Assembly: GCF_003863965.1 (NCBI RefSeq)
Contig: NZ_RRCN01000001.1
Location: forward strand, 5,476,304 to 5,540,303
Source of the DNA: Paenibacillus oralis
GTDB taxonomy: Bacteria > Bacillota > Bacilli > Paenibacillales > Paenibacillaceae
Length of the DNA: 64,000 nucleotides
Direction of reading: 5' to 3'
This document shows, piece by piece, positions 1 to 12,151 of this stretch. The notes under the pieces were generated by a model that saw only the letters and a program-made list of their open reading frames with translations, did no database searches and was not told the DNA's origin. Within the stretch, counting starts at the first letter, position 1. Every line of letters starts with the position of its first letter. The position numbers and the translations under genes are program-made.

Positions 1-1481
1 AATACGACAGCATCAGGCGGTCCGGCGCGAACGGAGCGAATGGCCATGTGGAATACAGGGATCTGGTTCGCTGGATCATCCGGGAGCTGCCGAGCGAAAA
101 CCCGATTACGGCTGAACAGGTGCGCAGTTTTGCGGAAAAGGTGGACAATAGCTGCCGCAACCTCGCCCTGTTTATCGAGCGGACGGCGGAGCTTGACGTG
201 TATGACTACCGTACATCGGAGCAATCGCTGATTTACGGGCATCCGTTCCACCCTTTTCCCAAAAATTCGCTGGGATTTTCCGAGCGGGATGTACGAATGT
301 ACAGCCCGGAGCTGCGCACCTCGTTTCAGCTCGGGTATTTTGCCGTGAGCAAGGATGTGTACCGGGAAGAGTGGGTGGCCGAGGACAAAAAAGTACCGCC
401 GCATGAGAGCGTGCGGGCGCATCTCCGGCATACGCTGGGGGACAAAAGCGGCGAATACGCTCCGCTTCCGGTTCATCCGTGGCAATACAAGCATGTGCTG
501 GGTCTAGCCGAGGTTCAGGATTATGTTCGCGAAGGGAAAATAGTTCCCCTAGGCAGTCTGGGGCCGCTTGTCTTTCCGACAACCTCCGTGCGCACGGTAT
601 TTGTGCCCGACATGAACTGCAATATTAAGCTGCCCCTAAACATGCAGATCACCAATTTGATCCGCACTAACAGTGACGAACAAATGCGCAGGACGCTGGA
701 CGCCTCCCGCTATTTGCTGCGGCATGGCTGCTTTGGTCCGGATTCGCCTACCCGGATCGCTTATGAGACGGGCGTTGGCACCTGCCGGTTTGCGGAAGAG
801 GAGCTGACCCGGCTGTTCACGGTGGTCTACCGTCCGGTTGAATTTGACCCGTCATGCACCTATGTGCTGGCAAGCCTGGTGGAAGCTCCGCAGCCGGGAA
901 GGCCTTCGCGCCTGATGTCGATGCTGGGCGGCGGCAGCGGACAGAACGGACAGGCGGACCGCTGGTTTGCACGCTATCTGGAGCTGTCGCTGCTGCCGAT
1001 CGTGCGTGTTGCGTGGGAGAAGGGCATTCATTTTGAAGCCCATTTGCAGAACACGCTGCTGACCCTGCGGGACGGCATGCCGGACGCCTTCATTATTCGT
1101 GATCTGGAAGGCGTGAGCGTCGAGTCCGGCAAGGCGGGGGAAGGGCCGGGGGCAGCCCGGGGGCAGGACCTGTCCGGTCCCTTGTTCTATTCAAGAGAGC
1201 AGGCGTGGGCGCGGACATCGTACTATTTTATCGTAAATCATCTCGGCTCGCTTATTCATGCCATGGCCAGGGATGCGGACGTTCCCGAAGCGCATTTTTG
1301 GACGATCGTTCGCGAATCGCTCCGGCAGGAATATGAGGGCTCCGGCAATGCTTTTGCGAAACACTTGCTGACGGCCGATACGTTCTATGCCAAGCGGAAC
1401 ATGCTGAGCTGCTTAAGAGGAAACGGCGAGATGCCTGCTTATGTGCCGGTCGGCAATTTGATGAAAAAAACGGGGGAGTGA
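1..1481 (+). CDS. NIS siderophore synthetase, SbnC-like (5' end outside window)
   Basis: This is an IucA/IucC-family ATP-dependent synthetase, which joins a carboxylic acid to an amine during siderophore assembly. The reading frame is open from base 3 to the stop at 1481, so the start lies upstream; a GTG at 48 is only internal. About 492 residues are visible against a usual 580-600, so roughly 100 N-terminal residues are missing. Family motifs are seen in order: GHPFHPFPKNSLGFS, PVHPWQYKH, TTSVRTVF, KLPLNMQITNLIRTN and FEAHLQNTLL followed by RDLEGV. By remembered sequence, the last motifs and the TSFQLGYFAV segment resemble SbnC of staphyloferrin B synthesis (the 2-oxoglutarate-adding enzyme) more than SbnE or SbnF. 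The stop overlaps the next gene, so it is the upstream member of an operon. Family is certain; the subtype is likely. Confidence 0.9.
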   Translation, partial: YDSIRRSGANGANGHVEYRDLVRWIIRELPSENPITAEQVRSFAEKVDNSCRNLALFIERTAELDVYDYRTSEQSLIYGHPFHPFPKNSLGFSERDVRMYSPELRTSFQLGYFAVSKDVYREEWVAEDKKVPPHESVRAHLRHTLGDKSGEYAPLPVHPWQYKHVLGLAEVQDYVREGKIVPLGSLGPLVFPTTSVRTVFVPDMNCNIKLPLNMQITNLIRTNSDEQMRRTLDASRYLLRHGCFGPDSPTRIAYETGVGTCRFAEEELTRLFTVVYRPVEFDPSCTYVLASLVEAPQPGRPSRLMSMLGGGSGQNGQADRWFARYLELSLLPIVRVAWEKGIHFEAHLQNTLLTLRDGMPDAFIIRDLEGVSVESGKAGEGPGAARGQDLSGPLFYSREQAWARTSYYFIVNHLGSLIHAMARDADVPEAHFWTIVRESLRQEYEGSGNAFAKHLLTADTFYAKRNMLSCLRGNGEMPAYVPVGNLMKKTGE

Positions 1482-3277
1482 AGCGAGTGGGAACCATGAG
1501 CAGTTTGTCTAACTTGTCCGACCCGAAGGCGGCCGCCTACCATGACGTGCAGGAGAGAATCATGCGCCAGACGCTGGAGGCTTTATGGTTTGATGGCATC
1601 TTGAACCGTAGTGAAACCAACAGAGTTTGGCGGACAGACGGAGTAGGAAGGGATGGAAAGCCGGTCGCCTATACTTGCGAGGCGGAGGAAAAATATTCAT
1701 TCGGCCGGGTGAAAATCGTCAAGGGCTCCATCCAAAGAGAAAACGAACCCTGCACCGACCTATATCTGTTTCTGGAGGAACTGGTGCTGGGCAACCTGCA
1801 AGGGGAGCGGATCGCCTCCTTCATCCAGGAGCTGCTGGAAACGCTGGCTAAGGATAACCAGTGCCGGGCCGAGCTCCCCGAGTGCATTCCGGACAGTGAC
1901 AGACACTACGATGCGCTGGAAAGCCATATGACGGACGGGCATCCTTACCATCCGAGCTACAAGTCCAGACTTGGCTTCACTTTAAAGGACAATCTGGCGT
2001 ACGGCCCCGAATTCAATCGGAACATTCGTCTGCACTGGGTTGCCGTCAAACAGGAGCTTACCGATATGGCGCTTTCCGCCGGCTGCTCGGCGGAGGAAAT
2101 TTACGGAAAGCATTTAACGGAAAATGATCGGCAGAGGTTCGGCCGCATTCTGAAGGAGCAGGGCGATGGGAGCGCGTATGTGCTGATCCCTGTCCATCCC
2201 TGGCAATGGGAACATCAGCTTGAAACCGTATTCACCCGCCAGCGGCTGTGCCGGGAACTGATTCCGCTGGGGATTTCGGACGGCAACTACCGGGCGCAGC
2301 AATCGATCCGCACGTTATCGCACAGAGATCATGCGGAGGCTGCTTACATCAAATTGTCGCTCAGCATCACCAATACCTCAACCAGCCGTATTTTGGCCCA
2401 TCATACAACGCAAAATGCCCCGCTGATCAGCGACTGGCTGGACGGTCTGATCCGGCAGGACGAGCTGCTGCAGCGGGAGCGGTTCGGCATACTCAAAGAG
2501 GTTATGGGGCTGTCCTTCCGATACGAGGGATTGCCCAGGGTTCAGTATCGCAGCGCATACGGCACGCTGGGAGCAATCTGGAGGGAGAACGTGTCCGCCC
2601 GCCTGCGGGAAGGAGAAGAGGCTTGGCCGCTGAACGCATTGATGCTGGTGCAAAACAACGGCGAGCCGTTCATCCGGGATGTCATCGGCCGGCACGGAAT
2701 CAGGCGGTGGAGCGAAGCGCTCGTCCGAACGCTGACCCTGCCGATGATTCATCTGCTCTACGCGCACGGCATCGCTTTGGAGGCGCATGCCCAGAACATC
2801 ATCCTGGTGCTGGAGGATGGGCTGCCGGTGCGGATCATCGTCAAGGACCTGCATGACGGCGTGCGTTTTGTCCCGGACAAGCTGCTGTTTCCGGAGCTGG
2901 CGCCCAAGCTGTACCCTGAGCCGGAAACGCACCGGCGGTTCAACCGGTATTCATTCATCCATGCCAAAGAGGTGTCGGAGGTGCGGGATTACACGTATGA
3001 CGCTTTCTTTTTCATCTGCATGACGGAGATCGCTCTGACCCTGGAAAGGTTCGGCTTGCCGGAGCGAGAGTTCTGGAGCTTGTGTACGGCGACGATTGCG
3101 GAATATCAGCGGCAGTTTCCCGAGTATAGGGAGAGGTTTAAATGGTTTGACCTGTTTGCGGCGGATGCGCTGATCGAGGAGATGACCAAACGGAGGCTGT
3201 ACGGTGACGGCGAGTTGCATTTCCGTAAAACAAGCAATCCGCTGCGGCTGGCGAGGGAGAGTTTATCACTGTCATGA
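1478..3277 (+). CDS. NIS siderophore synthetase, SbnF-like
   Basis: This is a full-length (599 aa) IucA/IucC-family synthetase. Motifs include GHPYHPSYKSRLGFTLKDN near residue 155, PVHPWQWEHQ near 235, QQSIRTLS, LSLSITNTSTSRILA, YGTLGAIWREN and ALEAHAQNIILVLEDGLP, followed by KDLHDGVRF. The order and wording match what I remember of SbnF, which adds a 2,3-diaminopropionate unit in staphyloferrin B synthesis. The GTG start at 1478 overlaps the stop of the upstream synthetase by four bases, with a G-rich ribosome site just before it; an ATG at 1496 is the alternative. It is translationally coupled to both neighbours. Family is certain; the exact substrate is inferred. Confidence 0.9.
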   Translation: MKRVGTMSSLSNLSDPKAAAYHDVQERIMRQTLEALWFDGILNRSETNRVWRTDGVGRDGKPVAYTCEAEEKYSFGRVKIVKGSIQRENEPCTDLYLFLEELVLGNLQGERIASFIQELLETLAKDNQCRAELPECIPDSDRHYDALESHMTDGHPYHPSYKSRLGFTLKDNLAYGPEFNRNIRLHWVAVKQELTDMALSAGCSAEEIYGKHLTENDRQRFGRILKEQGDGSAYVLIPVHPWQWEHQLETVFTRQRLCRELIPLGISDGNYRAQQSIRTLSHRDHAEAAYIKLSLSITNTSTSRILAHHTTQNAPLISDWLDGLIRQDELLQRERFGILKEVMGLSFRYEGLPRVQYRSAYGTLGAIWRENVSARLREGEEAWPLNALMLVQNNGEPFIRDVIGRHGIRRWSEALVRTLTLPMIHLLYAHGIALEAHAQNIILVLEDGLPVRIIVKDLHDGVRFVPDKLLFPELAPKLYPEPETHRRFNRYSFIHAKEVSEVRDYTYDAFFFICMTEIALTLERFGLPEREFWSLCTATIAEYQRQFPEYRERFKWFDLFAADALIEEMTKRRLYGDGELHFRKTSNPLRLARESLSLS

Positions 3278-4050
3278 GACCGAATACGCTGAAATTAAAA
3301 ATAAACCGGAAGCAGCCGGTATTCGGACTGTTTGTCTCCATTCCGCATCCCATTGTTGTTGAGCTGATCGGCCAGGCCGAATATGATTTTGTCATCATTG
3401 ATTACGAGCATGCTTCCACGAATATGGAGCGCGTCGAGGAACTAATCCGCGCGGCCGAGCTGGCGGGCGTAACCCCGCTTGTCCGTGTTTCGGGCGTAGA
3501 ACGCACCGAAATACTGAAAGTGCTGGACTGCGGCGCCCAGGGCATCATCATCCCCCATGTGGAGCGGCGCGAGCAGGTGGAGGAGGCTGTCCGCTGGGCG
3601 TATTACCATCCGCTCGGAATGCGCAGCCTGAACAGCGGCCGGCCGGGCGCGTTCGCCAAATATTCGCTGGCCGACTACATCCGCGAAGCCAATGAAGCCA
3701 TCATGATTGTGCCGATGATAGAAAGTACGGAAGGTATCCGGCAAAGTGAAGCCATTTTGTCCCATCCGCAGATCGGCTTTGTGCTGGAAGGGGCGGCGGA
3801 TCTGTCGCAATCGCTGGGATTGCCGTGGCAAACCGGGCATCCCGAAGTGCGGCGGCAGCTGGAGCAATTGCATGCGGCAGCGCAGCGCTGTGGGGTTCCA
3901 TACGCGGCGGTGGCCAGAAGCAGGGAGGATATGCGGCTGTGGGCGGAGCGAGGCGTACGCATTTATGTGCTGGGGGATGACAGGAACACGGCATTCCGCG
4001 CGTATATGCAAAAGCGAAATGACTATCGGGACGCGGGAGGATGGATATGA
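3274..4050 (+). CDS. HpcH/HpaI aldolase-family enzyme, SbnG-like (siderophore citrate synthase)
   Basis: A 258-aa protein of the HpcH/HpaI aldolase superfamily. Visible features are the metal-site glutamate in VPMIESTEG, the metal aspartate in GAADLSQSLG and the IIPHVERREQ strand. In staphyloferrin B clusters the equivalent protein SbnG condenses oxaloacetate with acetyl-CoA to supply citrate independently of the TCA cycle; position inside this operon makes the same role likely. The ATG overlaps the stop of the upstream synthetase in an ATGA arrangement, and its own end overlaps the decarboxylase gene. A general hydroxy-oxo-acid aldolase would look alike, so the assignment rests partly on context. 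Confidence 0.85.
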   Translation: MRPNTLKLKINRKQPVFGLFVSIPHPIVVELIGQAEYDFVIIDYEHASTNMERVEELIRAAELAGVTPLVRVSGVERTEILKVLDCGAQGIIIPHVERREQVEEAVRWAYYHPLGMRSLNSGRPGAFAKYSLADYIREANEAIMIVPMIESTEGIRQSEAILSHPQIGFVLEGAADLSQSLGLPWQTGHPEVRRQLEQLHAAAQRCGVPYAAVARSREDMRLWAERGVRIYVLGDDRNTAFRAYMQKRNDYRDAGGWI

Positions 4051-5294
4051 ACACAAACGTATGGGAAGCGATAGACCGATTGCGGGCGGAGAGCCGGGAG
4101 CCGCTATGCGCCTACCTGTATGACCTGGCGGGGATTCAGGCGCATGTCCGGGAGATGCGGCGGGTGATGCCGGAGGGGACAGGGCTGTTCTACGCCATCA
4201 AAGCCAACCCCGATCGGCGTATTATCGAGTGTCTGCTGCCGCTGGTGGACGGCTTTGAGGTGGCATCCGCCGGCGAACTGCTCAAAGTCAGGGAAGTTTG
4301 TGAGAGCGTTCGGATTTTGTTCGGGGGCCCGGGCAAAAAAGAAGCGGAGCTGGAACTGGCCATCAGGCACAATGTCACTTATATCCACGTGGAAAGCCTG
4401 CTGGAGCTGAGGCGGATCATCCGGCTGGCCCAGGGGCGGAGCCAGCCGGTGCGCATTTTGCTGCGCATCAACCTGAGAACGGCTGCGTTGCCGCAGACCA
4501 AGATTGCGATGGGGGGCCGCCCTACTCCTTTTGGGCTGGATGAGTTGTTGATCGAAGAAGCGATTGGCATCATCCGGGAGGAGGGCCAGGGGGCGGTCCG
4601 GTTATGCGGTTTTCATTTTCACTCGCTGTCGAACAATTTACGGGCGGAGCTGCATGCCGAGATGATTGAACTGTATTTGCAGAAGGCGGAGGAGTGGGCA
4701 GAGCGCTACAATCTGGACATTGAGATCGTCAACGCGGGCGGCGGTTTTGGCGTCTCCTACGATGCTGCGCCGGCGTTCGACTGGCCGCTGTTTACTTCCC
4801 TGATCGCGCAAAGTGAAGCAAGGAACCGGCTTGCCGGGGTGCGGCTGTGGTTCGAGCCGGGCCGGCTGATCGTGGCCGAGCATGGCTATTATGCGGCCGA
4901 GGTGATTGACATCAAAGCAGCGCATGATCAGCACTTTGCCGTGCTGCGGGGAGGTACCCACCATAACCGGCTGCCCGCTTCCTGGGGGCACAATCATCCG
5001 TTTGTCATTATGCCGGCGGACAAGTGGGCGTACCCTTTTGCCAGACCGGAAGTAAAGCATGGAAAAGTGACGTTGGTCGGCGAGCTGTGCACGCCGAAAG
5101 ACCGGCTGCACACGGATGCCGAAGTGGAGTGTTTGCGGGTCGGCGACCTTGTTATTTTTGAGAAGTCCGGCGCCTATTGCTGGACGATCTCCCACCATGA
5201 TTTTCTCGGCCACCCGCACCCGGAATTTTACTATTTGACGGAAGGAAATGGTCATGCATACATCGACAATACAGCTCGGCCTACGGGCGGCTGA
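4047..5294 (+). CDS. PLP-dependent decarboxylase, SbnH-like
   Basis: A 415-aa fold-type III PLP decarboxylase of the ornithine/diaminopimelate decarboxylase group. The Schiff-base lysine lies in LFYAIKANPDRRI (about residue 52), the phosphate-binding glycine run in NAGGGFGVSYD, and the C-terminal active-site cysteine in GELCTPKD. In staphyloferrin B synthesis SbnH decarboxylates the citryl-diaminopropionate intermediate to yield the ethylenediamine portion. An ATG at 4047 overlaps the stop of the aldolase gene and sits six bases after GGGAGG; the ATG at 4041 is too close to that site. The 3' end overlaps the next synthetase gene by about 40 bases, so expression is coupled. Confidence 0.88.
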   Translation: MNTNVWEAIDRLRAESREPLCAYLYDLAGIQAHVREMRRVMPEGTGLFYAIKANPDRRIIECLLPLVDGFEVASAGELLKVREVCESVRILFGGPGKKEAELELAIRHNVTYIHVESLLELRRIIRLAQGRSQPVRILLRINLRTAALPQTKIAMGGRPTPFGLDELLIEEAIGIIREEGQGAVRLCGFHFHSLSNNLRAELHAEMIELYLQKAEEWAERYNLDIEIVNAGGGFGVSYDAAPAFDWPLFTSLIAQSEARNRLAGVRLWFEPGRLIVAEHGYYAAEVIDIKAAHDQHFAVLRGGTHHNRLPASWGHNHPFVIMPADKWAYPFARPEVKHGKVTLVGELCTPKDRLHTDAEVECLRVGDLVIFEKSGAYCWTISHHDFLGHPHPEFYYLTEGNGHAYIDNTARPTGG

Positions 5295-7140
5295 GTCGCG
5301 GATTACCGCCGATTTGATGAATGCTTTTTTGACGGAGCGGTTTTTCCGGTTGGAAGAGGATACGCTGAGGCCGCTGGCGGCTGCGCCGGAGCAGATTCGG
5401 GGGTTATACGGAGACTATGGGGACGAGACCAAGGTATATGCCGGGGAAATGGCGTTTTTGGTTGAGCCTGGCATCCGGCTGGGAGTTCAGTGGGTGCAGG
5501 ATTCCCCTATCTATAAAAAGAATGCGGACGGAAGCTGGTTGGGCTTAGGCTCTGCGTCGGAGCTGGCGGAAGCCGTGCTGCGTTCGGCGTTGTCCGTGGA
5601 AGCTTATGCGCGGCCGGGCGTCGCGGACTTTTTGGCCGCTGTGGGGACGGCGGTTCAGCAGCTAGCGCTCGGCCTAAGTCCGAAGCGTATGGAGCCGTTG
5701 CTGGCGTTCGCTCCGGCCACGGCTTACGAGTGGTTCATCAAAGGGGAACAGATCGCCGCTTTGCGGGACCGCCCGTTCCATCCGACGGCCAAAGCCAAAA
5801 TCGGCTTCACCGGATCCGACAGCTTGCAGTATGCGGCGGAGTTTGGCAACCCGATCCGCCTCCGTTGGGTGGCGGTGCGCAGGGATTCGATCGAGCGGGG
5901 CTGCGAGGAGGAAGAGTTGTCCTGCCTGGATGTATTGAACGCCGAGCAGCGTGCTTTGGTTGAGGCAGCATTGAAGCGGCGGAGAATGGGAGCGGACGAG
6001 TACGTGCCGATGCCTGTCCACCCCTGGCAGCTTGAGCATGTGATCGTGCCCCGTTTCACTCAGGAGATAAAGGACGGGACGATCGTGGTGCTGGATGCGG
6101 AGGCCGGCGATTTCCTGTCCACCTCTTCGCTGCGTTCCATGGCGCCGCAAGCCGGGGCTGGTGCCGGTGCCGGGTTTGCATCGGCCATGCTCAAGCTACC
6201 GGTCAGTGTACTGTCACTAGGAGCCGCCCGCTATTTGCCCGTGGTGAAGCTGCTTAACGGCCTGGCCGGAGAGAAGCTGCTGCGTCAAGCGGTGGCTCGC
6301 GACGAAACGCTGCGCGGCCGGGTTTATCTATGCGAGGAGCGCCATTGGTGGGGCTACATGCCGGCGACGATGGGGCTGTTCGACGACCACCCGCGCCATC
6401 TGGCCGCCCAGCTCCGTCTTTACCCGCCGGAACTGTTTGAGGAAGGGTGCAAGGTGATCCCGATGTCCGCGCTTGGCGTGGATTTGGGCGGCCGGCATTT
6501 TTTGTCCGAAATGATGGGCAAGCCGCTTTCCGCCGAGGAGGTCATAAGCTTCTACACCGATCTGGCCGGCATGTTCTACGATGTGGTAATGCGTTTGTTC
6601 AAGGTTGGAATTGTGCCGGAAATTCACGGACAAAACTGCTGTCTCGTTTTGAAGCAAAATCAAGTGAGCGGACTGCTGTTCCGCGACCACGATTCGGTGC
6701 GCCTGCATCAGCCGTATTTGGATAGGCATGGTATTGGGGACCCGGGCTACCGCATTCGCCCCGGCTATTCCAACAGCCTGTACAATGAGACGATCGAGAA
6801 GCTGATTTTTTATGTCCAATCGCTGGGCACGCAGGTGAATCTGGCTTCGATCATGGAAGCCCTGTCCGGCGTGTACGCCATTCCCGAGTCCCGCTTGTGG
6901 GCGATTACAGAGGAAGCATGGAAGGAAGCGCTGCTGGCCGCCGGGCTGCCGGAAGCCGACCGCGCCGCGCTGCACCGGGCGATTTTCGAGAGCGGGGAAT
7001 GGCCGGTGAAGCTCGTCGTCCGTCCGCTGCTGGAAGCGGATGGGGTGCCGGGCGCGATGCCGTCAGGCAAAGGAAAGGGGCATAATCCTTTTTTGACAGA
7101 GAAAAATTTTTCCTTGACAAATAACGATAAGATGAATTAA
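5254..7140 (+). CDS. NIS siderophore synthetase, probably SbnE-like
   Basis: The third IucA/IucC-family synthetase of the operon (628 aa). Motifs are PFHPTAKAKIGFTGSD near residue 170, PVHPWQLEHVI near 250, STSSLRSM, and EIHGQNCCLVLKQN with RDHDSVRL near the C-terminal end. With SbnC- and SbnF-like enzymes present, it most likely takes the remaining SbnE role, joining citrate to 2,3-diaminopropionate; this is by elimination. ATG 5254 has GAAGGAA six bases upstream, better than ATG 5248. Residues about 295-310 contain a short Gly/Ala-rich insertion (GAGAGAGFASA). It is the last intact gene of the operon. Confidence 0.86.
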   Translation: MHTSTIQLGLRAAESRITADLMNAFLTERFFRLEEDTLRPLAAAPEQIRGLYGDYGDETKVYAGEMAFLVEPGIRLGVQWVQDSPIYKKNADGSWLGLGSASELAEAVLRSALSVEAYARPGVADFLAAVGTAVQQLALGLSPKRMEPLLAFAPATAYEWFIKGEQIAALRDRPFHPTAKAKIGFTGSDSLQYAAEFGNPIRLRWVAVRRDSIERGCEEEELSCLDVLNAEQRALVEAALKRRRMGADEYVPMPVHPWQLEHVIVPRFTQEIKDGTIVVLDAEAGDFLSTSSLRSMAPQAGAGAGAGFASAMLKLPVSVLSLGAARYLPVVKLLNGLAGEKLLRQAVARDETLRGRVYLCEERHWWGYMPATMGLFDDHPRHLAAQLRLYPPELFEEGCKVIPMSALGVDLGGRHFLSEMMGKPLSAEEVISFYTDLAGMFYDVVMRLFKVGIVPEIHGQNCCLVLKQNQVSGLLFRDHDSVRLHQPYLDRHGIGDPGYRIRPGYSNSLYNETIEKLIFYVQSLGTQVNLASIMEALSGVYAIPESRLWAITEEAWKEALLAAGLPEADRAALHRAIFESGEWPVKLVVRPLLEADGVPGAMPSGKGKGHNPFLTEKNFSLTNNDKMN

Positions 7141-7185
7141 GCTGATGAAAATTTAGGAAAATGAATGAAAGGAGCGTGAACGGGG

Positions 7186-7329
7186 ATGAAATTGGCGATG
7201 CATCCATTTGGGTATGAGAACATGGAGCAGTGGTGCCTTCTGGAGGACAACCGCTTGTTTGATCATGCCGAAACCTTTTTATTCTCGTCATGCGGCCATT
7301 GCAATATATCCAAACATTCTCTTCCTTAG
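7186..7329 (+). pseudogene. Short 47-aa ORF, probable truncated last gene of siderophore operon
   Basis: An ATG at 7186 follows a good ribosome site (AAAGGAGCG) and opens a 47-codon frame beginning MKLAMHPFGYENMEQW and ending shortly after an SSCGHC stretch. The start looks like that of a normal enzyme gene, 45 bases after the synthetase stop, but the frame closes within 150 bases and is followed by a terminator. I read it as the 5' stump of a deleted gene; a genuine small protein with a CGHC motif is the alternative. I do not recognise the family. Confidence 0.4.
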
Positions 7330-7386
7330 GGAAGGATGTATACAAATTAACGTTGTTTGTAACATGCGAATTTGTTCGGATATTAG

Positions 7387-7418
7387 ACCGCTGAGGAGAC
7401 TCGGCGGTTTTCTTTTTG
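7387..7418 (+). terminator. Rho-independent terminator after siderophore operon
   Basis: ACCGCTGAG pairs with CTCGGCGGT around a four-base loop, and the hairpin is followed by TTTTCTTTTT. It separates the siderophore operon from the tRNA locus. Confidence 0.8.
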
Positions 7419-7458
7419 GCTATTATGGGTGAATGTTGAAAAAAATATAAAAAAAGGG

Positions 7459-7487
7459 TTGACATCCCTAAAACAGCATGCTAAGAT
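7459..7487 (+). promoter_or_regulatory. Sigma-A-like promoter of the tRNA locus
   Basis: A perfect -35 box TTGACA (7459-7464) is followed after 17 bases by TAAGAT (7482-7487). It is the only strong promoter I see between the terminator at 7387 and the YkuK-like gene, so it may drive the small ORF, the tRNA array and the downstream gene as one transcript. Short palindromes (GCGTTAACGC near 7518 and TTCGTA/TACGAA near 7540) lie between it and the ORF. Confidence 0.65.
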
Positions 7488-7570
7488 CATAAACATCAAG
7501 AAGGTAAAACATTAAAGCGTTAACGCGACGATGCGTTTCGTAAATCTACGAAGAAAGGAAGGGATAGGAA

Positions 7571-7738
7571 ATGAAACAGCACCATACATTAGATTTTCTG
7601 GAGAAAAGCTATAACCAACAGGCAAATATTTGGCGAGAGAGCGGCGAACCATCCTATCTCGATCCGATCGCCAGTAGCTTTTACGTACCACGCTTAGTCC
7701 GTAAAATCCTTAAAGGAGGAGGAACGGTACTAGCGTGA
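7571..7738 (+). CDS. 55-aa ORF at head of tRNA array, unknown
   Basis: ATG 7571 follows a GGAAGGGAT ribosome site at about eight bases. The product starts MKQHHTLDFLEKSYN, is hydrophilic, ends in KGGGTVLA and has no domain I can name. It lies between the array promoter and the first tRNA-like element, and its last codons overlap a hairpin shaped like an anticodon arm (7734-7750). It could be a genuine leader or companion protein of the array, or the stump of a longer gene. Its good ribosome site argues that it is translated. Confidence 0.5.
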   Translation: MKQHHTLDFLEKSYNQQANIWRESGEPSYLDPIASSFYVPRLVRKILKGGGTVLA

Positions 7739-7780
7739 TTGTGAATCACGGACCGTTCTGAATTCCGGTTTCAATTCCGT
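7723..7780 (+). other. tRNA-like hairpin fragment with His-type anticodon loop
   Basis: CGTGA-TTGTGAA-TCACG (7734-7750) is a perfect 5-bp, 7-base anticodon-arm shape with GTG in the anticodon position. It is nested inside AACGGT/ACCGTT (7723-7728 with 7752-7757), and a T-loop-like GGTTTCAATTCC follows at 7767-7778. No acceptor stem can be drawn, so this is not a functional tRNA by normal rules. The 7781-7915 spacer holds another small hairpin (ACTTGC/GCAAGT near 7808-7825) and no gene. Confidence 0.35.
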
Positions 7781-7915
7781 CGATACATATACAGTACGTA
7801 AGAGGCTACTTGCACCCTGGCAAGTGGTCCATTTGTGCTTGTTTCTGCCCGGAGGATTTGGGAAAGGCAAGTGAAGCGAATGGTGCCGCTTTGGGGAAGG
7901 TAGTCTTTTTTTCAT

Positions 7916-7990
7916 GGCGCATTAGGCAAGCGGTCAAAGCCACAGGACTTTCAATCCTGCAATCGCTCGGTTCGAATCCGGCATGCGTCA
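7916..7990 (+). tRNA. tRNA-Glu (TTC), degenerate
   Basis: The acceptor stem GGCGCAT/ATGCGTC (one G-T pair), 3-bp D stem GGC/GCC, anticodon arm CAGGA-CTTTCAA-TCCTG with anticodon TTC, and a T loop TTCGAAT are all present. The T stem CTCGG/CCGGC has one mismatch and one wobble, and no CCA is encoded after the A discriminator. It is tRNA-like throughout but weaker than a housekeeping tRNA-Glu. Confidence 0.7.
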
Positions 7991-8001
7991 CTTATTTTCG
8001 C

Positions 8002-8079
8002 GGAGATCGTGGTGAAGTGGATAACACGTCAGGTTGTGGCCCTGATACTGCACCGGTTCGATTCCGGTCGATCTCCCCA
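8002..8079 (+). tRNA. tRNA-His (GTG)
   Basis: An extra 5' G pairs with the C discriminator, as expected for tRNA-His. The acceptor stem is GAGATCG/CGATCTC, the D stem GTG/CAC, and the anticodon arm TCAGG-TTGTGGC-CCTGA carries GTG. The T arm ACCGG-TTCGATT-CCGGT is perfect and CCA is encoded. This is one of the best-formed members of the array. Confidence 0.92.
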
Positions 8080-8235
8080 ATTAAAAGTACATATCTTTAC
8101 GGTTCGCAAAGTGTGAGTGGGTCACTTGACAGGGTTCAATATTGTGGTTCAACGAAACACAAGCTGTAAAAAATCGGTGGGAGATTAACCCGCTCTTAGC
8201 AAGGATTTGCCGTAATCCAGTTCTGTCTTTAGCAT
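8080..8235 (+). other. Spacer with tRNA-like debris
   Basis: This 156-base gap between tRNA-His and the second tRNA-Glu has no ORF with a ribosome site. It contains tRNA-like pieces: a GTGT/ACAC pair near 8110 and 8157, a TTGA/TCAA hairpin near 8127, and GGATT-TGCCGT-AATCC near 8203-8218 resembling an anticodon arm with a six-base loop. None folds into a full cloverleaf by eye. It may be decayed tRNA genes or structured spacer RNA. Confidence 0.3.
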
Positions 8236-8310
8236 GGCGTGGTGGTGAAAATGGATGAACACACCGGCCTTTCACGTCGGGATTTGCGGGTTCGAGCCCC
8301 GTCCACGTCA
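8236..8310 (+). tRNA. tRNA-Glu (TTC), second copy
   Basis: The acceptor stem GGCGTGG/CCACGTC includes one G-T pair, the D stem is GTG/CAC, and the anticodon arm CCGGC-CTTTCAC-GTCGG carries TTC. The T arm GCGGG-TTCGAGC-CCCGT closes with one wobble, and the discriminator is A with no encoded CCA. It differs from the Glu copy at 7916 in every stem, so it is not a recent duplicate. Confidence 0.88.
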
Positions 8311-8326
8311 TCTTTATTCATCCTGT

Positions 8327-8403
8327 AGGGGTCCATGTTCCTAGGACGGCGAGTTTGCCTCCAAAGCAAACTGTGGTGGGTTCAATTCCCACGCCCCCTG
8401 CCA
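8327..8403 (+). tRNA. tRNA-Trp (CCA), irregular
   Basis: The anticodon arm TTTGC-CTCCAAA-GCAAA carries CCA, the T arm GTGGG-TTCAATT-CCCAC is perfect, the discriminator is G and CCA is encoded. The acceptor stem AGGGGTC/GCCCCCT has a mismatch at the sixth pair, and the D arm is reduced (GTT-CCTAG-GAC). The identity elements favour Trp, but the shortened D loop is unusual. Confidence 0.8.
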
Positions 8404-8409
8404 AATTAT

Positions 8410-8485
8410 AGGGGTATAGAATAGCGGCCTAATTCACGGGACTTTGACTCCCGCAGCTCCGGTTCGAATCCGGATACCCCTTCCA
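8410..8485 (+). tRNA. tRNA-Gln (TTG)
   Basis: The acceptor stem AGGGGTA/TACCCCT, D stem GAAT/ATTC with loop AGCGGCCTA, anticodon arm CGGGA-CTTTGAC-TCCCG with TTG, and T arm TCCGG-TTCGAAT-CCGGA are all intact. The discriminator is T and CCA is encoded. It lies seven bases after tRNA-Trp. Confidence 0.9.
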
Positions 8486-8559
8486 AATTTCATCTCCGCT
8501 GGATGAAAGCTGTGCGTGGGCAGCTCCATTTCATTTTGGGGTTCGCACCATGATTATAT
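8486..8559 (+). other. Structured spacer between tRNA-Gln and tRNA-Tyr
   Basis: A perfect 7-bp hairpin TTTCATC/GATGAAA with a seven-base loop (8488-8508) is followed by AGCTG/CAGCT. A GTGCG/CGCAC pair encloses a region ending in CACCA near 8550. It looks like a scrambled tRNA rather than a terminator because no T-run follows. No coding potential is seen. Confidence 0.3.
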
Positions 8560-8642
8560 GTGCCGATGGGTGAGTGGTTGAAACCACCAGACTGTAAATC
8601 TGGCCTGTAAAAAGCGCGCTGGTTCGAATCCGGCTCGGCACA
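8560..8642 (+). tRNA. tRNA-Tyr (GTA)
   Basis: The acceptor stem GTGCCGA/TCGGCAC is perfect, the anticodon arm CCAGA-CTGTAAA-TCTGG carries GTA, and a long variable region of about 14 bases marks it as a class II tRNA as expected for Tyr. The T arm GCTGG-TTCGAAT-CCGGC closes with one wobble. CCA is not encoded. It is the last tRNA of the array, 33 bases before the YkuK-like gene. Confidence 0.9.
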
Positions 8643-8675
8643 CTTGTGATCAAGCAGCGGTGATCAAGACATATT

Positions 8676-9332
8676 ATGAAAAGGGAGCTTACGGCCCGAA
8701 AAATTCCAAAACGAAAGGAAGAAGCCAACCTTGCAGTACAGGTGAAACCCATGAAAAGTAAAAGACGACAGTACCCATTGATTCATGAGACGACATTTCG
8801 GAATACGACGGAACAGAACCTTGAGTTTAGCGATGTGATGGAGCGGATAACCCGGTTCATCGCAAGCGATCCGCGGGGCGTATACGACCTCGTGATTACG
8901 ACCGACGCACAGACCCACCCGGGACATACCAAGTTCGTCAGCTACATTGTAGTGTATCGTGTAGGAAGAGGGGCATGGCTGTGCAGCCGCCAAGTGATTC
9001 TTCCCAGGGAAATTTATTCGGTTCGCGAAAAATTGTCTTTGGAAACGTCATACAGCCAAGAAATTGCCGCGCAATTCGGGGTGGCCGAGCGGATCAGCCT
9101 CGAAAACCTGATCCTTCCTTATCTCGATCAAGGGGCGGACATTCGCTTTATGGTCGATATTGATGGCGGCCGCGAGGCCAAGAACCAGACGGCAGCCTAT
9201 CTTTCGGAAATGGTTGGTCGAATTGAGGCGATGGGTTTGATCGCCAGGGTCAAGCCTGAATCGGTGATGGTCAGTGTAGCCGACCGCGAAACCAAGAAAC
9301 CGTACCCGTTAAGGGCGGCTTCAAATTCGTAA
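8676..9332 (+). CDS. YkuK-like RNase H-fold protein (DUF458)
   Basis: A 218-aa protein whose residues from about 30 onward follow the YkuK/DUF458 pattern: NLEFSDVMERITRFI, then DLVITTDAQTHPGHTKF with the first acidic residue expected for an RNase H-like fold, then LETSYSQEIA, VDIDGGREAKNQT and VKPESVMVSVADR. The biochemical role of the family is not established; RNase H-like folding suggests nucleic-acid processing. The start is uncertain: ATG 8676 lacks a clear ribosome site and ATG 8751 also fits the homologous part. It directly follows the tRNA array with no terminator between, and a terminator follows at 9385, so cotranscription with the tRNAs is plausible. Its presence suggests a job in tRNA metabolism, but that is inference. 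Confidence 0.8.
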   Translation: MKRELTARKIPKRKEEANLAVQVKPMKSKRRQYPLIHETTFRNTTEQNLEFSDVMERITRFIASDPRGVYDLVITTDAQTHPGHTKFVSYIVVYRVGRGAWLCSRQVILPREIYSVREKLSLETSYSQEIAAQFGVAERISLENLILPYLDQGADIRFMVDIDGGREAKNQTAAYLSEMVGRIEAMGLIARVKPESVMVSVADRETKKPYPLRAASNS

Positions 9333-9384
9333 GTTTAAAATCAGTCCGAATTTTATTCCAGGAAGCACACGTAAACAAATGAAG

Positions 9385-9412
9385 AAGAACTCATTTTTTG
9401 GGTTCTTTTTTT
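9385..9412 (+). terminator. Terminator after YkuK-like gene
   Basis: AAGAACTC pairs with GGGTTCTT (one wobble) around a T-rich loop, followed by a run of T. It closes the tRNA-array transcription unit. The remaining 9413-9646 stretch holds only A/T-rich promoter-like sequence before the next gene. Confidence 0.8.
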
Positions 9413-9646
9413 GTGAAAACAAATAAGAATATATGTTCCTATTGGGACTTTAGTAGGTAGGGAAGGCTGCGAATATTAGGTATTATTATAGAAGAAAGAT
9501 TTTTGGATCGCGTGCTCGCGGCCATCTATAGAAAAAACGGGAAGGTGGAGGCGCGGGGAATTTCATGAATACTTACTGCTCTTTGTATTCCAGCTAAGAC
9601 GTGGGGCTTTCGCCAAGAAACTAGTTCAGAGAAGGAGATAACATGA

Positions 9647-12151
9647 ATGTCGCACAGAGTTTATCTATATAACGTGAGCATGCCTTCTCAATCGCACAAT
9701 GCCGATAAGATGATGATGGAATGGGGCTATGAAATGCCCCTTTTATTACAACCGCTACTGCTCAAAAACGGGAAGATCGCCGGCAATAACTATAATCATC
9801 ATACTGAGCCCGGCAATGCCGGGTTGTACTACGATGCCCAAGCAGGCATCGAAAACTTGAAACGGTTCTATGATTTTCTGGAACAGCAGCCGCTGTTGAT
9901 CGAGGATAAAGCCGCCTTTGCCGAAGCCAAAAACAAACTTGTGGCCTATCTTGAAAAATTGAAACTCCCATATTTCCACCTGGATGCCTGGGACGTGTTC
10001 AACATGGACGATATCCCCCATGCCGAACAGGCGGAAACTTGGCTGGTGAGTATTGCCCGCAACAACGAATTGATCACAAATGCCATGGAAAACGGCGATA
10101 TCTCACTGCTGCGTTATGCCGATTTGCAGGACGTGAACCCTGCTTTCAAGTCGTTTGCCGAGTTGCTCAACTATAAAGATTATCAATATGGCTGGGCGCA
10201 CATCTGGCAGTCCGGCGAAGAAGATTACGAAGTGGAAATTTTTGAGGAAAATGGTTTGTGGGGCCTTAAAGACGAGGATGGAAACCTATTGCTTGCCCCG
10301 CAATTTGATGAATTTTATGGTTTTGCCGCGGAGAATCTTGCCGTGGTCACTTTAGGCGGTAAGTATGGTTATGTACATAAATCGGGGAGAATTGCCATTC
10401 CTCTCATATGGGATGATGCTTTTGATTTTGAATATGGCACCGAATTGGCGATCGTCCAACTGAACGATAAATTCGGTCTGATTGACGTCCAAGGCAGAAT
10501 GGTCGCCCCTGCTCAATACGAAAGTTTGGAATTGCTGGATTACAGCGGTTATTTTACCGCAAAAAAAGACGGGAAATGGGGCGTGTTGAACGACTGCAGT
10601 TTCGTAATGATAGATTTTGAATTTGACGAAGCGTTTGATAGCGGCAACGGATTTTACCATACGGCTGTGAAAGGGCAAAAAAACCGCAAGATATTTAATG
10701 AGGACTTCATATATATCGGCGAATATCCGCTAAGCGCCCTGGAACCTATCGGGAATGGGCTTATCCTGGTCAAACCGCACAAGCATGCCAGTCACAACAC
10801 GTTGTACAAAAAAGACGGAACGATTCTCGCCGCGGGCTTCGACAAAATCAACCGGCAAACCGGCTTGCCTAATCTGCTTTTATTACGCAAAGGGAAGAAG
10901 CATGGCGCCCTTGGCTTAGCGCAGGAAAGCTTGCTGCTGCCGTATGAATATGATGCGCTGATTGAAATACAGGCTTCCGGGGCAAGCAATTGGGTGCTGG
11001 CGCGTAAAGATGGACAAAAAGGGATATTTGACGGGGACACCGATCACCCTTCATGGTTATTTCCTTTGGATGATTACGAATCTATCCGCTGGCTGTACGA
11101 TAATGCGTTTGCTTTGCGGCGCGGCGGGTTATGGGGCATCGGCTATACCTCCGAGAACCTGATCAGCGGCTTCGAATTTGATCTTGTGGTGCGGAAAGTG
11201 CCCGTAAACGGATTCGCTTATGCCTTTATAGGTCCCGAAGTTTATGTGGGAAGCAAGTACGGGCTGGCGAGAGCCGACAAAGATCTCGTGATGGAGGATG
11301 CTCAGGATCAATATTATAACTATTATTTTGATGACGACGCACGCCAACGCCTGCTGACTTATGCAGCAGCGGCTAGCCCTGACGATGTCATCGTGGATGA
11401 ATACACATCGGTAGAGACTTTGTACAACCTGGGCCTGGCTGCCTACGAGACGGGGGATTTTGAAAAATCCATCCATTACGACACGCTTGCCGCCGAAAAG
11501 GGGCACCCCTCTTCCATGAACAACCTGGCCAATCTTTACTACACTGTCGACGGTTACCTTGATGACGATAAGGCTTTTTACTGGTACGAAAAGGGGGCTA
11601 TGGCCGGCTACACTTATGCGATGAACGGCTTGGGCGTTTGCTACCAAACCGGTGTAGGGACGGCGCCTGATGCGGAAAAGGCGTTATATTGGCTAGGCAA
11701 AGCTGCGGACAATGGCAACGCGTTGGCATACAACAACTTGGGCAGCGTGTACTATGAGGGTCAATTGGTACCTCAAGATATCGATGCCGCGCTTTACTAT
11801 TATGAGCAGGGTGAGGCATGGGGTTCGCCGGACAACGGCTGGCTGGGTTATTTACACGAAATGAAAGGGAATCCGGAAAGAGCTTTCCGCTATTACTGGC
11901 GGGATTATGAGGATGGCAGTGGCATAGGGGCTTTTAATTTAGGCATCTGTTATAGTCAGGGGGTTGGAACAACCATTGACATCGCCAAGCCCATAACCTA
12001 TTTTAAAGCCGCGGTTGAAAGATCGTATCTATATGGTCATATCGAATTAGCCAGGATATATGGGAACGAAGAGGATTTTAGGGATGAACAATTAGCACGG
12101 CAGCATATCGCGCTTGCCGAACAGGCGGGCCTTGACATTCCTGATGAATAG
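9647..12151 (+). CDS. WG-repeat and Sel1-repeat protein
   Basis: An 834-aa cytoplasmic-looking protein with no signal peptide. Residues about 195-560 contain WG repeats of the form NGLWGLKDEDGNLLLAPQFD and DGKWGVLND. Residues about 590-820 contain Sel1/TPR-like helical repeats (MNNLANLYYT, MNGLGVCYQTGVGTAPDAEK, YNNLGSVYYEG, FNLGICYSQGVG). Both repeat types are scaffolds for protein binding and give no enzymatic clue. GAAGGAGATA sits about seven bases before ATG 9647; an ATG at 9643 in another frame ends after nine codons. It stands alone upstream of a HAD gene. The partner is unknown. Confidence 0.85.
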   Translation: MSHRVYLYNVSMPSQSHNADKMMMEWGYEMPLLLQPLLLKNGKIAGNNYNHHTEPGNAGLYYDAQAGIENLKRFYDFLEQQPLLIEDKAAFAEAKNKLVAYLEKLKLPYFHLDAWDVFNMDDIPHAEQAETWLVSIARNNELITNAMENGDISLLRYADLQDVNPAFKSFAELLNYKDYQYGWAHIWQSGEEDYEVEIFEENGLWGLKDEDGNLLLAPQFDEFYGFAAENLAVVTLGGKYGYVHKSGRIAIPLIWDDAFDFEYGTELAIVQLNDKFGLIDVQGRMVAPAQYESLELLDYSGYFTAKKDGKWGVLNDCSFVMIDFEFDEAFDSGNGFYHTAVKGQKNRKIFNEDFIYIGEYPLSALEPIGNGLILVKPHKHASHNTLYKKDGTILAAGFDKINRQTGLPNLLLLRKGKKHGALGLAQESLLLPYEYDALIEIQASGASNWVLARKDGQKGIFDGDTDHPSWLFPLDDYESIRWLYDNAFALRRGGLWGIGYTSENLISGFEFDLVVRKVPVNGFAYAFIGPEVYVGSKYGLARADKDLVMEDAQDQYYNYYFDDDARQRLLTYAAAASPDDVIVDEYTSVETLYNLGLAAYETGDFEKSIHYDTLAAEKGHPSSMNNLANLYYTVDGYLDDDKAFYWYEKGAMAGYTYAMNGLGVCYQTGVGTAPDAEKALYWLGKAADNGNALAYNNLGSVYYEGQLVPQDIDAALYYYEQGEAWGSPDNGWLGYLHEMKGNPERAFRYYWRDYEDGSGIGAFNLGICYSQGVGTTIDIAKPITYFKAAVERSYLYGHIELARIYGNEEDFRDEQLARQHIALAEQAGLDIPDE

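Follow-up and report, generated by a model that had tools for sequence, protein, structure and literature searches.

The tRNA genes clustered ahead of a YkuK/DUF458 gene in a 64,000-nucleotide stretch of the Paenibacillus oralis genome (the window) are preceded by a conserved leader open reading frame (ORF), the RNA of which has the potential to form either of two competing structures. The composition of the leader peptide follows the tRNA content of the array behind it and is split by position, and the linkage of the array to the DUF458 gene is kept in relatives. An earlier note, made from the letters of the window, had described an irregular tRNA array with a YkuK/DUF458 gene, and we confirm that observation. 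Taken at the level of sequence, these features make it probable that the unit is an operon of reserve tRNAs whose transcription is controlled by ribosome-mediated attenuation. We propose with less assurance, a little short of an even chance, that it is a self-contained response to tRNA damage: the N-terminal part of the leader would name the replaceable codons and the C-terminal part avoid them, and relief of attenuation would yield both tRNAs that evade nucleases and an RNase H-like enzyme for the clearing or maturation of tRNA. The same design, perhaps arrived at independently, would occur on large plasmids with an RVT_3 RNase H and leaders containing all 20 amino acids.

The window belongs to an 8.1-Mb genome (G000), and coordinates are window positions; L, G and C numbers denote loci, genomes and contigs. 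The unit (7186-9412) runs from leader ORF1, a hairpin and a promoter-like site through leader ORF2 and its structured leader to six tRNA genes with an embedded 124-nucleotide (nt) RNA and the DUF458/YkuK gene, as follows.

7186..7329, + strand: leader ORF1, 47 amino acids (aa), with a ribosome-site match; its DNA is kept upstream of the arrays in L057, L040, L058, L060, L061, L062 and C2
7385..7415, + strand: terminator-like hairpin 3' of ORF1, from a scan with a hit rate no higher than in shuffles
7459..7487, + strand: sigma-70-type promoter-like site, from a scan with a hit rate no higher than in shuffles; the surrounding region aligns among leaders
7571..7738, + strand: leader ORF2, 55 aa, the proposed stall sensor; ribosome site, ATG and C-terminal stretch kept, reading frame uninterrupted in all 11 aligned leaders
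7674..7688, + strand: region 2, within ORF2, with potential for antiterminator pairing with region 3 (folding, alignment)
7794..7811, + strand: region 3, with region 2 or region 4 as alternative partners (folding, alignment)
7893..7912, + strand: region 4 and a run of seven T (terminator arm), directly 5' of tRNA-Glu (sequence, folding)
7916..7991, + strand: tRNA-Glu (TTC) (ARAGORN, Rfam, conservation)
8003..8079, + strand: tRNA-His (GTG) (ARAGORN, Rfam, conservation)
8094..8217, + strand: conserved structured RNA of 124 nt, model R1 (covariation, model searches)
8235..8312, + strand: second tRNA-Glu (TTC) (ARAGORN, Rfam, conservation)
8327..8403, + strand: tRNA-Trp (CCA), with an unusual D arm, kept in relatives (by eye, sub-threshold Rfam match, homologues)
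8410..8485, + strand: tRNA-Gln (TTG) (ARAGORN, Rfam)
8560..8643, + strand: tRNA-Tyr (GTA) (ARAGORN, Rfam)
8676..9332, + strand: DUF458/YkuK RNase H-like gene, start at 8676 or 8751 (PF04308 profile, Ka/Ks, residue conservation)
9382..9412, + strand: terminator-like hairpin with a T run, read by eye and absent from the scan listing

Eleven leaders can be aligned; they keep the ribosome site, the start codon and a C-terminal stretch, are 55 to 76 aa long, and every one of their frames is open. The leader RNA fold beats that of 100 of 100 shuffles (z = -3.59). When ORF2 is included in the folded segment, region 2 is paired with 7794-7809; when ORF2 is excluded, 7800-7811 is paired with 7898-7909, reaching into the T run. 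By folding, antiterminator and terminator are mutually exclusive in the window, and across loci they are so only in part. For the comparison among loci, which takes in other clades with different leader sequences, 17 representatives stood for the 28 array loci; 15 of the 17 have a T run by a rule of our own, with the best T run per locus taken. Shuffles gave a pairing of region 4 with region 3 as good as the real one at most 6 times in 100 in 12 of these 15 loci, and region 2 ends 34 to 49 nt before the ORF stop in 14. A T-box riboswitch was rejected, as no covariance-model match to one appeared in the Rfam scans of the window. The motif AATCRCGGACCGTTC also occurs in 27 viral stretches, which we took to be chance matches because tblastn found the leader peptide in none of them and just 2 of the 27 hold a tRNA, a lone one in each case. 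A longer leader motif, allowed one mismatch, was found in 12 of 394 Paenibacillaceae genomes. Seven of these have true leaders, six with arrays and one (G295) as a remnant; no tRNA lies within the 3-kb locus of the other five (G217, G224, G272, G273 and G302).

A ribosome that stalls before region 2 would free it and one that stalls on or after region 2 would hide it, so that sensor codons are expected only upstream of this region. The leaders were examined with this expectation in mind, using ORFs that start with ATG, have a ribosome-site match of at least 6 and encode 30 to 85 aa, a rule set after a looser ORF list had been read. One L086 leader was shortened to an inner start codon. The array of the window group had its Trp entered by hand, but that of L062, whose Trp-like gene ARAGORN misses, did not; three leaders added by hand left the composition correlation unchanged. 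The N parts of the 17 loci (845 residues) are enriched in His (2.2-fold), Gln (2.2-fold), Asn (2.0-fold), Trp (1.9-fold) and Glu (1.4-fold) and depleted in Val (0.2-fold), Ala (0.45-fold), Gly (0.5-fold) and Thr (0.5-fold); Cys stands at 2.0-fold but is high in control ORFs too. This enrichment tracks array content (Spearman 0.63, p = 0.003, by a permutation without kept margins), and the per-locus match between leader and array lies above 1000 of 1000 margin-keeping swaps, or above 495 of 500 when 11 less related loci are used. Control ORFs, 59 small ones at array-less loci, show no such enrichment (His 1.17, Gln 0.88, Asn 1.02, Glu 0.76). The last 22 residues of the leaders follow the reverse trend, with Gln at 0.47, Glu at 0.33, Trp at 0.16, Ser at 2.26 and Arg at 1.85 (Spearman -0.58, p = 0.008). 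The 22-residue cut was picked by eye and cuts of 14 to 30 residues were also run, in all of which the N part correlated positively (p = 0.003 to 0.037) and the C part negatively. Enrichment in pathway codons ahead of the switch segment, by which a ribosome-mediated attenuator is recognized, is thus what we found in these leaders.

The tRNA genes of the window are dense, six in about 730 bp, and their anticodons are also present in the housekeeping set. Their identity and order (Glu-His-Glu-Trp-Gln-Tyr) had been read correctly in the earlier note. Five are called by ARAGORN and by Rfam with 53.4 to 60.5 bits; the sixth, tRNA-Trp, reaches 21.5 bits where the Rfam tRNA gathering score is 29. ARAGORN does not detect it in the window, yet it does call the homologues in L059/L041 and in a second array of the same genome. 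A cmscan search also gave tRNA-Trp a sub-threshold match to tRNA-Sec (31.4 bits, gathering score 47). As to the uneven and deviant quality ascribed to the set, tRNA-Trp does lie below threshold and has an unusual D arm; the other five fall in the low to middle range of the genome's tRNAs and are not freakish (88 matches at E <= 1 with a best score of 76.2 bits, from 150 of 330 first-look candidates scored, the array His not being listed). The description of the intervening DNA as tRNA-like debris was wrong for two of the three stretches, 7739-7915 being conserved leader RNA and 8080-8235 conserved structured RNA. Debris and pseudogenes were rejected for the leader and for 8094-8217 by their conservation, and for the tRNAs by an identity above that of their flanks. 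The spacer between Gln and Tyr (8486-8559) has no blastn counterpart in L057 or L040. Elsewhere in the same genome, two low-scoring tRNA calls, Glu CTC and Ser GCT, overlap at L069:5843-5979 (G000 C1:3155843-3155977); Glu CTC is rare here.

Across the 28 array loci we counted 171 distinct tRNAs, 3 to 19 per array, consisting of Glu (33), Gln (19), His (17), Leu (15), Pro (12), Asp (11), Ile (10), Trp, Asn and Lys (9 each), Tyr (7), Phe (6), Gly (4), Ala and Met (3 each), Cys (2), and Val and Ser (1 each), with no Thr or Arg. The anticodons are the usual ones. Compared with the G000 tRNA of the same anticodon, the array tRNAs have an identity of 0.47 to 0.52 in the anticodon stem and 0.65 to 0.71 in the two halves; for eight control housekeeping tRNAs from another genus of the family the values are 0.91 for the stem and 0.92 and 0.88 for the halves. 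The host anticodon stem occurs in none of the 151 array tRNAs compared, a mean of 5.05 of its 10 bases being changed, and the stem is fully paired in 149 of the 171. Positions 32, 33, 37 and 38 of the anticodon loop are 0.83 to 0.95 identical to housekeeping tRNAs, the discriminator base is that of the host in 97 of 114 testable tRNAs (Glu and Gln account for 14 of the 17 that differ), and CCA is encoded in 127 of 171. Between the window and L057 and L040, the Glu, His, Glu and Trp genes are 96-100% identical, against 92% and 88% for the adjacent siderophore gene. In their sequences, then, the array tRNAs have re-written but paired anticodon stems and bear the mark of purifying selection. The earlier note had offered decoys or replacements during anticodon-nuclease attack as a possible role, beside a stress-specific translation set. 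Replacements fit better than decoys because of the usual anticodons, the host-like discriminators, the paired stems and a conservation above that of the flanks.

The last gene matches PF04308 with 122.7 bits (curated cut-off 25), and its description as an RNase H-like protein holds. Three acidic residues, candidates for catalysis, are kept in 31 of 31 proteins, namely the Asp of TDxQ, the Glu before Thr, and one Asp of the DID motif; one study groups YkuK in a clade with RNases H1 (PMC3985635). The window protein shares 98% identity with its counterpart in Paenibacillus macerans MER 50.2, and Ka/Ks values are 0.04 to 0.12, with saturation of silent sites in the two most distant comparisons. 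By its sequence context, another ATG in the same frame, at 8751 and preceded by AGGTGA, may be preferable to 8676 as the start. Solved structures searched by sequence gave a best E value of 0.99. DUF458 was rejected as a component of a known defence system because no PADLOC defence-system model matches it.

PF04308 is found in 79 of the 394 Paenibacillaceae genomes, and by our count an irregular array lies upstream of the DUF458 gene in 22 of the 394, some loci having been searched for tRNAs over only about 1.4 kb upstream. The distribution of arrays in the family is patchy. Named relatives have an array at nine of nine loci, with up to 19 tRNAs (P. allorhizosphaerae), and in genomes with two DUF458 genes exactly one stands behind an array (9 of 9). 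At least two upstream tRNAs on the same strand accompany 27 of 96 distinct DUF458 proteins; on a tree of the 96 these labels need 7 changes, against a shuffle mean of 23.7, and none of 500 shuffles is as low. It is a quick tree with long branches and without L058, and on it L056 was counted as array-bearing, though its cluster is housekeeping-like and served as a control in the comparison of tRNA bodies. Eleven array-less proteins fall inside the array-rich clade, and around those tested (15 loci) Rfam found no tRNA. In other families of Bacilli such an array was behind DUF458 in none of 70 sampled loci (the first 30 searched over about 1.5 kb each side), and a general linkage across Bacilli was rejected on this sample; L235 has eleven same-strand tRNAs downstream and L218 three opposite-strand ones. 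Two weak DUF458 matches on plasmids have no upstream tRNA by ARAGORN, and their annotation shows no tRNA array in a gene table that omits RNA genes. A phage link of DUF458 was rejected, as the phage collection gave no match and no viral-contig match was confirmed. The view of the locus as an auxiliary tRNA island with a nuclease-like partner is therefore supported by a linkage kept in many Paenibacillaceae. The earlier note had named the lack of such linkage in other genomes as evidence that would count against it, and linkage was found; taken as a whole its interpretation is partly supported, the leader peptides with their attenuator-like RNA, the embedded RNA and the second array having been unseen by it.

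The second array lies on contig C2 (518 kb) of the same genome (L068:9641-11299; G000 C2:317640-319298) and has 16 tRNAs, the same leader and a shorter structured RNA, without DUF458. Its order is Glu Gly Phe His Gln Leu Lys Tyr Pro Asp Ile Asn Ala Trp Gln Met, of which the window set reads as a reduced version. GIY-YIG, PhoH2-like, Mrr-type and HD genes are nearby, and comparison of C2 with plasmids gave short tRNA matches only. In G295 (L171:8121; C14:28121) we found an eroded remnant consisting of leader RNA and a truncated tRNA-Glu, with no array. The structured RNA embedded in the window array (8094-8217) aligns in ten sequences with 28 pairs, 8 of which have double changes, and five measures lie above 500 of 500 shuffles for a structure derived from the same alignment. 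The resulting model R1 matches 11 of 41 loci (the ten that built it and, weakly, L060) and 7 of the 394 family genomes, six strongly and G243 at 0.004. No Rfam family matches 8094-8217.

Long arrays are also carried by plasmids, namely pSC2 of P. polymyxa (L128:4629-14669), with 48 tRNA calls in a 14.7-kb stretch, one plasmid of P. thiaminolyticus and one of Rossellomorea. Two tandem leader ORFs stand upstream of these arrays. Each is followed by a hairpin and a T run, which for the second ORF lie about 30 nt ahead of the first tRNA. Inside each array is an RVT_3 RNase H-like gene (in Rossellomorea by similarity and annotation). All 20 amino acids are present in six of six plasmid leaders, with 0.06 to 0.24 expected for each and a product of 2e-5, which overstates the result because the plasmid leaders are related. 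Pairing of region 2 is clear in one of the six, borderline in one (8/200) and absent in four. The chromosomal and plasmid designs may be separate inventions. The RVT_3 partner was found in none of 384 family genomes at E 1e-20, in a search without a positive control.

These observations suggest a mechanism. During normal growth, ribosomes would traverse ORF2 and cover region 2, regions 3 and 4 would pair, and transcription would end at the T run before the first tRNA. If tRNAs of the array types were cleaved, missing or uncharged, a ribosome translating the N part of the leader would stall where their codons occur, leaving region 2 free to pair with region 3; no terminator would form, and the array would be transcribed. 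Because the array tRNAs combine usual anticodons with re-written bodies and anticodon stems, they should be able to stand in for the lost ones and would probably escape the enzyme that destroyed them. DUF458, made from the same transcript, would probably mature the array tRNAs or clear damaged tRNA.

Several results weigh against this interpretation. L060 and L064 have no T run by our rule and L065 fits poorly. The pairing of region 2 with region 3 is individually significant (at most 7 of 100 shuffles as good) in only 6 of the 15 loci, and within the clade of the window its pairs show no compensatory changes, only one-sided ones, with 4 of 150 cells unpaired and 6 gapped. Promoter-like and terminator-like sites are as frequent in scans of 7000-9700 as in shuffles (4 versus 3.7 and 3 versus 3.2). 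Asp, Lys and Leu, which are common in the arrays, are not enriched in the N parts (0.84, 1.01 and 0.80). Locus by locus, the C parts carry no signal (268 of 500 swaps), and their correlation has p below 0.05 up to a cut of 24 and loses it from 26 on; this is the weaker half of the composition result because the C parts amount to a handful of independent sequences. The host comparison of tRNA bodies used the tRNAs of G000 alone for all arrays, including those of other hosts. Finally, L057 and L040 lack Tyr and part or all of Gln.

The loss of Tyr and Gln in close relatives, the range of tRNA numbers from 3 to 19, the leader remnant with a truncated Glu in G295, and the similar array on C2 and related designs on plasmids would also suit a decaying mobile array, one that reached the chromosome, together with its leader, from a plasmid or phage and is now disappearing, having no function at present. 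We regard this as unlikely, given that the remaining tRNAs are 96-100% identical where the flanks are 88-92% identical, that the DUF458 gene has a Ka/Ks of 0.04 to 0.12, and that leader, structured RNA and DUF458 are retained, with a leader composition that follows each array. A translation set specific to a stress or stage, such as stationary phase or sporulation, would have no link to tRNA damage, and its leader would couple the array to translation rate or amino acid supply. Attenuation would answer amino acid shortage as well as tRNA cleavage, and the usual anticodons and mostly usual discriminators agree with such a set; however, these anticodons are redundant with the housekeeping tRNAs, so that no codon is newly served, and a plain supplement would not need the complete rewriting of its anticodon stems. 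We think this improbable.

Type III toxin-antitoxin systems carry tandem repeats of one small RNA ahead of a toxin gene. The structured RNA array directly upstream of a nuclease-fold gene with its active-site candidates kept recalls that layout, in which DUF458 would be a nuclease toxin bound and restrained by the upstream tRNA-like RNAs. However, what stands upstream is not one RNA repeated but a set of tRNAs of several isotypes, which have usual anticodons and for the most part (127 of 171) an encoded CCA, and the C2 array is without DUF458; such a system is very unlikely here. We favour the attenuated reserve tRNA operon.

The unit sits between a siderophore gene set (48-7140) and a gene for a WG/Sel1-repeat protein (9647-12151). 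Its extent had been given as one promoter at 7459 to one terminator at 9385; a promoter-like site, with 10 of 12 consensus bases and TG ahead of the second hexamer, and a terminator read by eye are present, but the unit starts further upstream, with leader ORF1 at 7186. ORF1 and its own terminator-like hairpin (7186-7415) precede the promoter of ORF2, and a second sensor in series is a possibility. The siderophore set comprises IucA/IucC-type genes, staphyloferrin B-like by profile, an HpcH/HpaI aldolase and a pyridoxal phosphate (PLP) decarboxylase, and its array-adjacent gene is also present in L057 and L040. Farther along, 33989-34197 matches the Enterococcus sRNA_1300 family of Rfam with 51.7 bits (gathering score 48.8).

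It has long been asked why bacteria, plasmids and phages carry arrays of redundant tRNAs, and the proposal of a role in antidefence has so far offered no regulatory handle. The leader supplies one and predicts the inducer. If the proposal is correct, bacteria would have a means of detecting that any of many kinds of tRNA has been lost and of supplying substitutes, which would let them survive damage to their tRNA, and the uncharacterised YkuK/DUF458 family would be tied to tRNA. The signature of leader ORF, array and RNase H-like gene could be used to find more such units.

In the attenuators of the trp and his operons, a leader peptide rich in the sensed codons decides between an antiterminator and a terminator. 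The window leader is likewise rich in the codons it would sense and has the potential for a competing antiterminator and terminator; it differs in that it is proposed to sense many amino acids at once and to control tRNA genes, and in that region 2 lies inside the leader ORF. The tRNAOther of B. cereus, described as a single pseudo-tRNA not functional in translation (PMC3399842), is also an extra odd tRNA in a Bacillota genome, whereas the window holds an operon with decodable anticodons. Redundant phage tRNAs with altered anticodon regions have been proposed to replace host tRNAs cleaved by VapC, PrrC or colicins (PMC10264068); compared with these, the window array is chromosomal, changed mainly in the stem, and predicted to be under leader-peptide control. 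The closest likeness is to tRNA array units, in which redundant tRNAs are densely packed and which occur in chromosomes as well as in plasmids and phages; two reports (PMC12803027, PMC5966550), which also cite Tran et al. 2016 for them, ascribe to them a putative role in antidefence. The window unit shares their density, their redundancy with the chromosomal set and sequences unlike chromosomal tRNAs. The sections of those reports covered here describe no leader peptide, attenuator, DUF458 gene or embedded RNA, which the window unit has or, for the attenuator, is predicted to have, and the M. avium arrays have an HNH endonuclease gene where the window unit has DUF458. Among the titles and abstract openings covered, with most subscription journals outside, none brought a tRNA array together with DUF458, a leader peptide or an attenuator. 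Units of this kind were already known; the predicted control of one by a leader peptide appears to be new.

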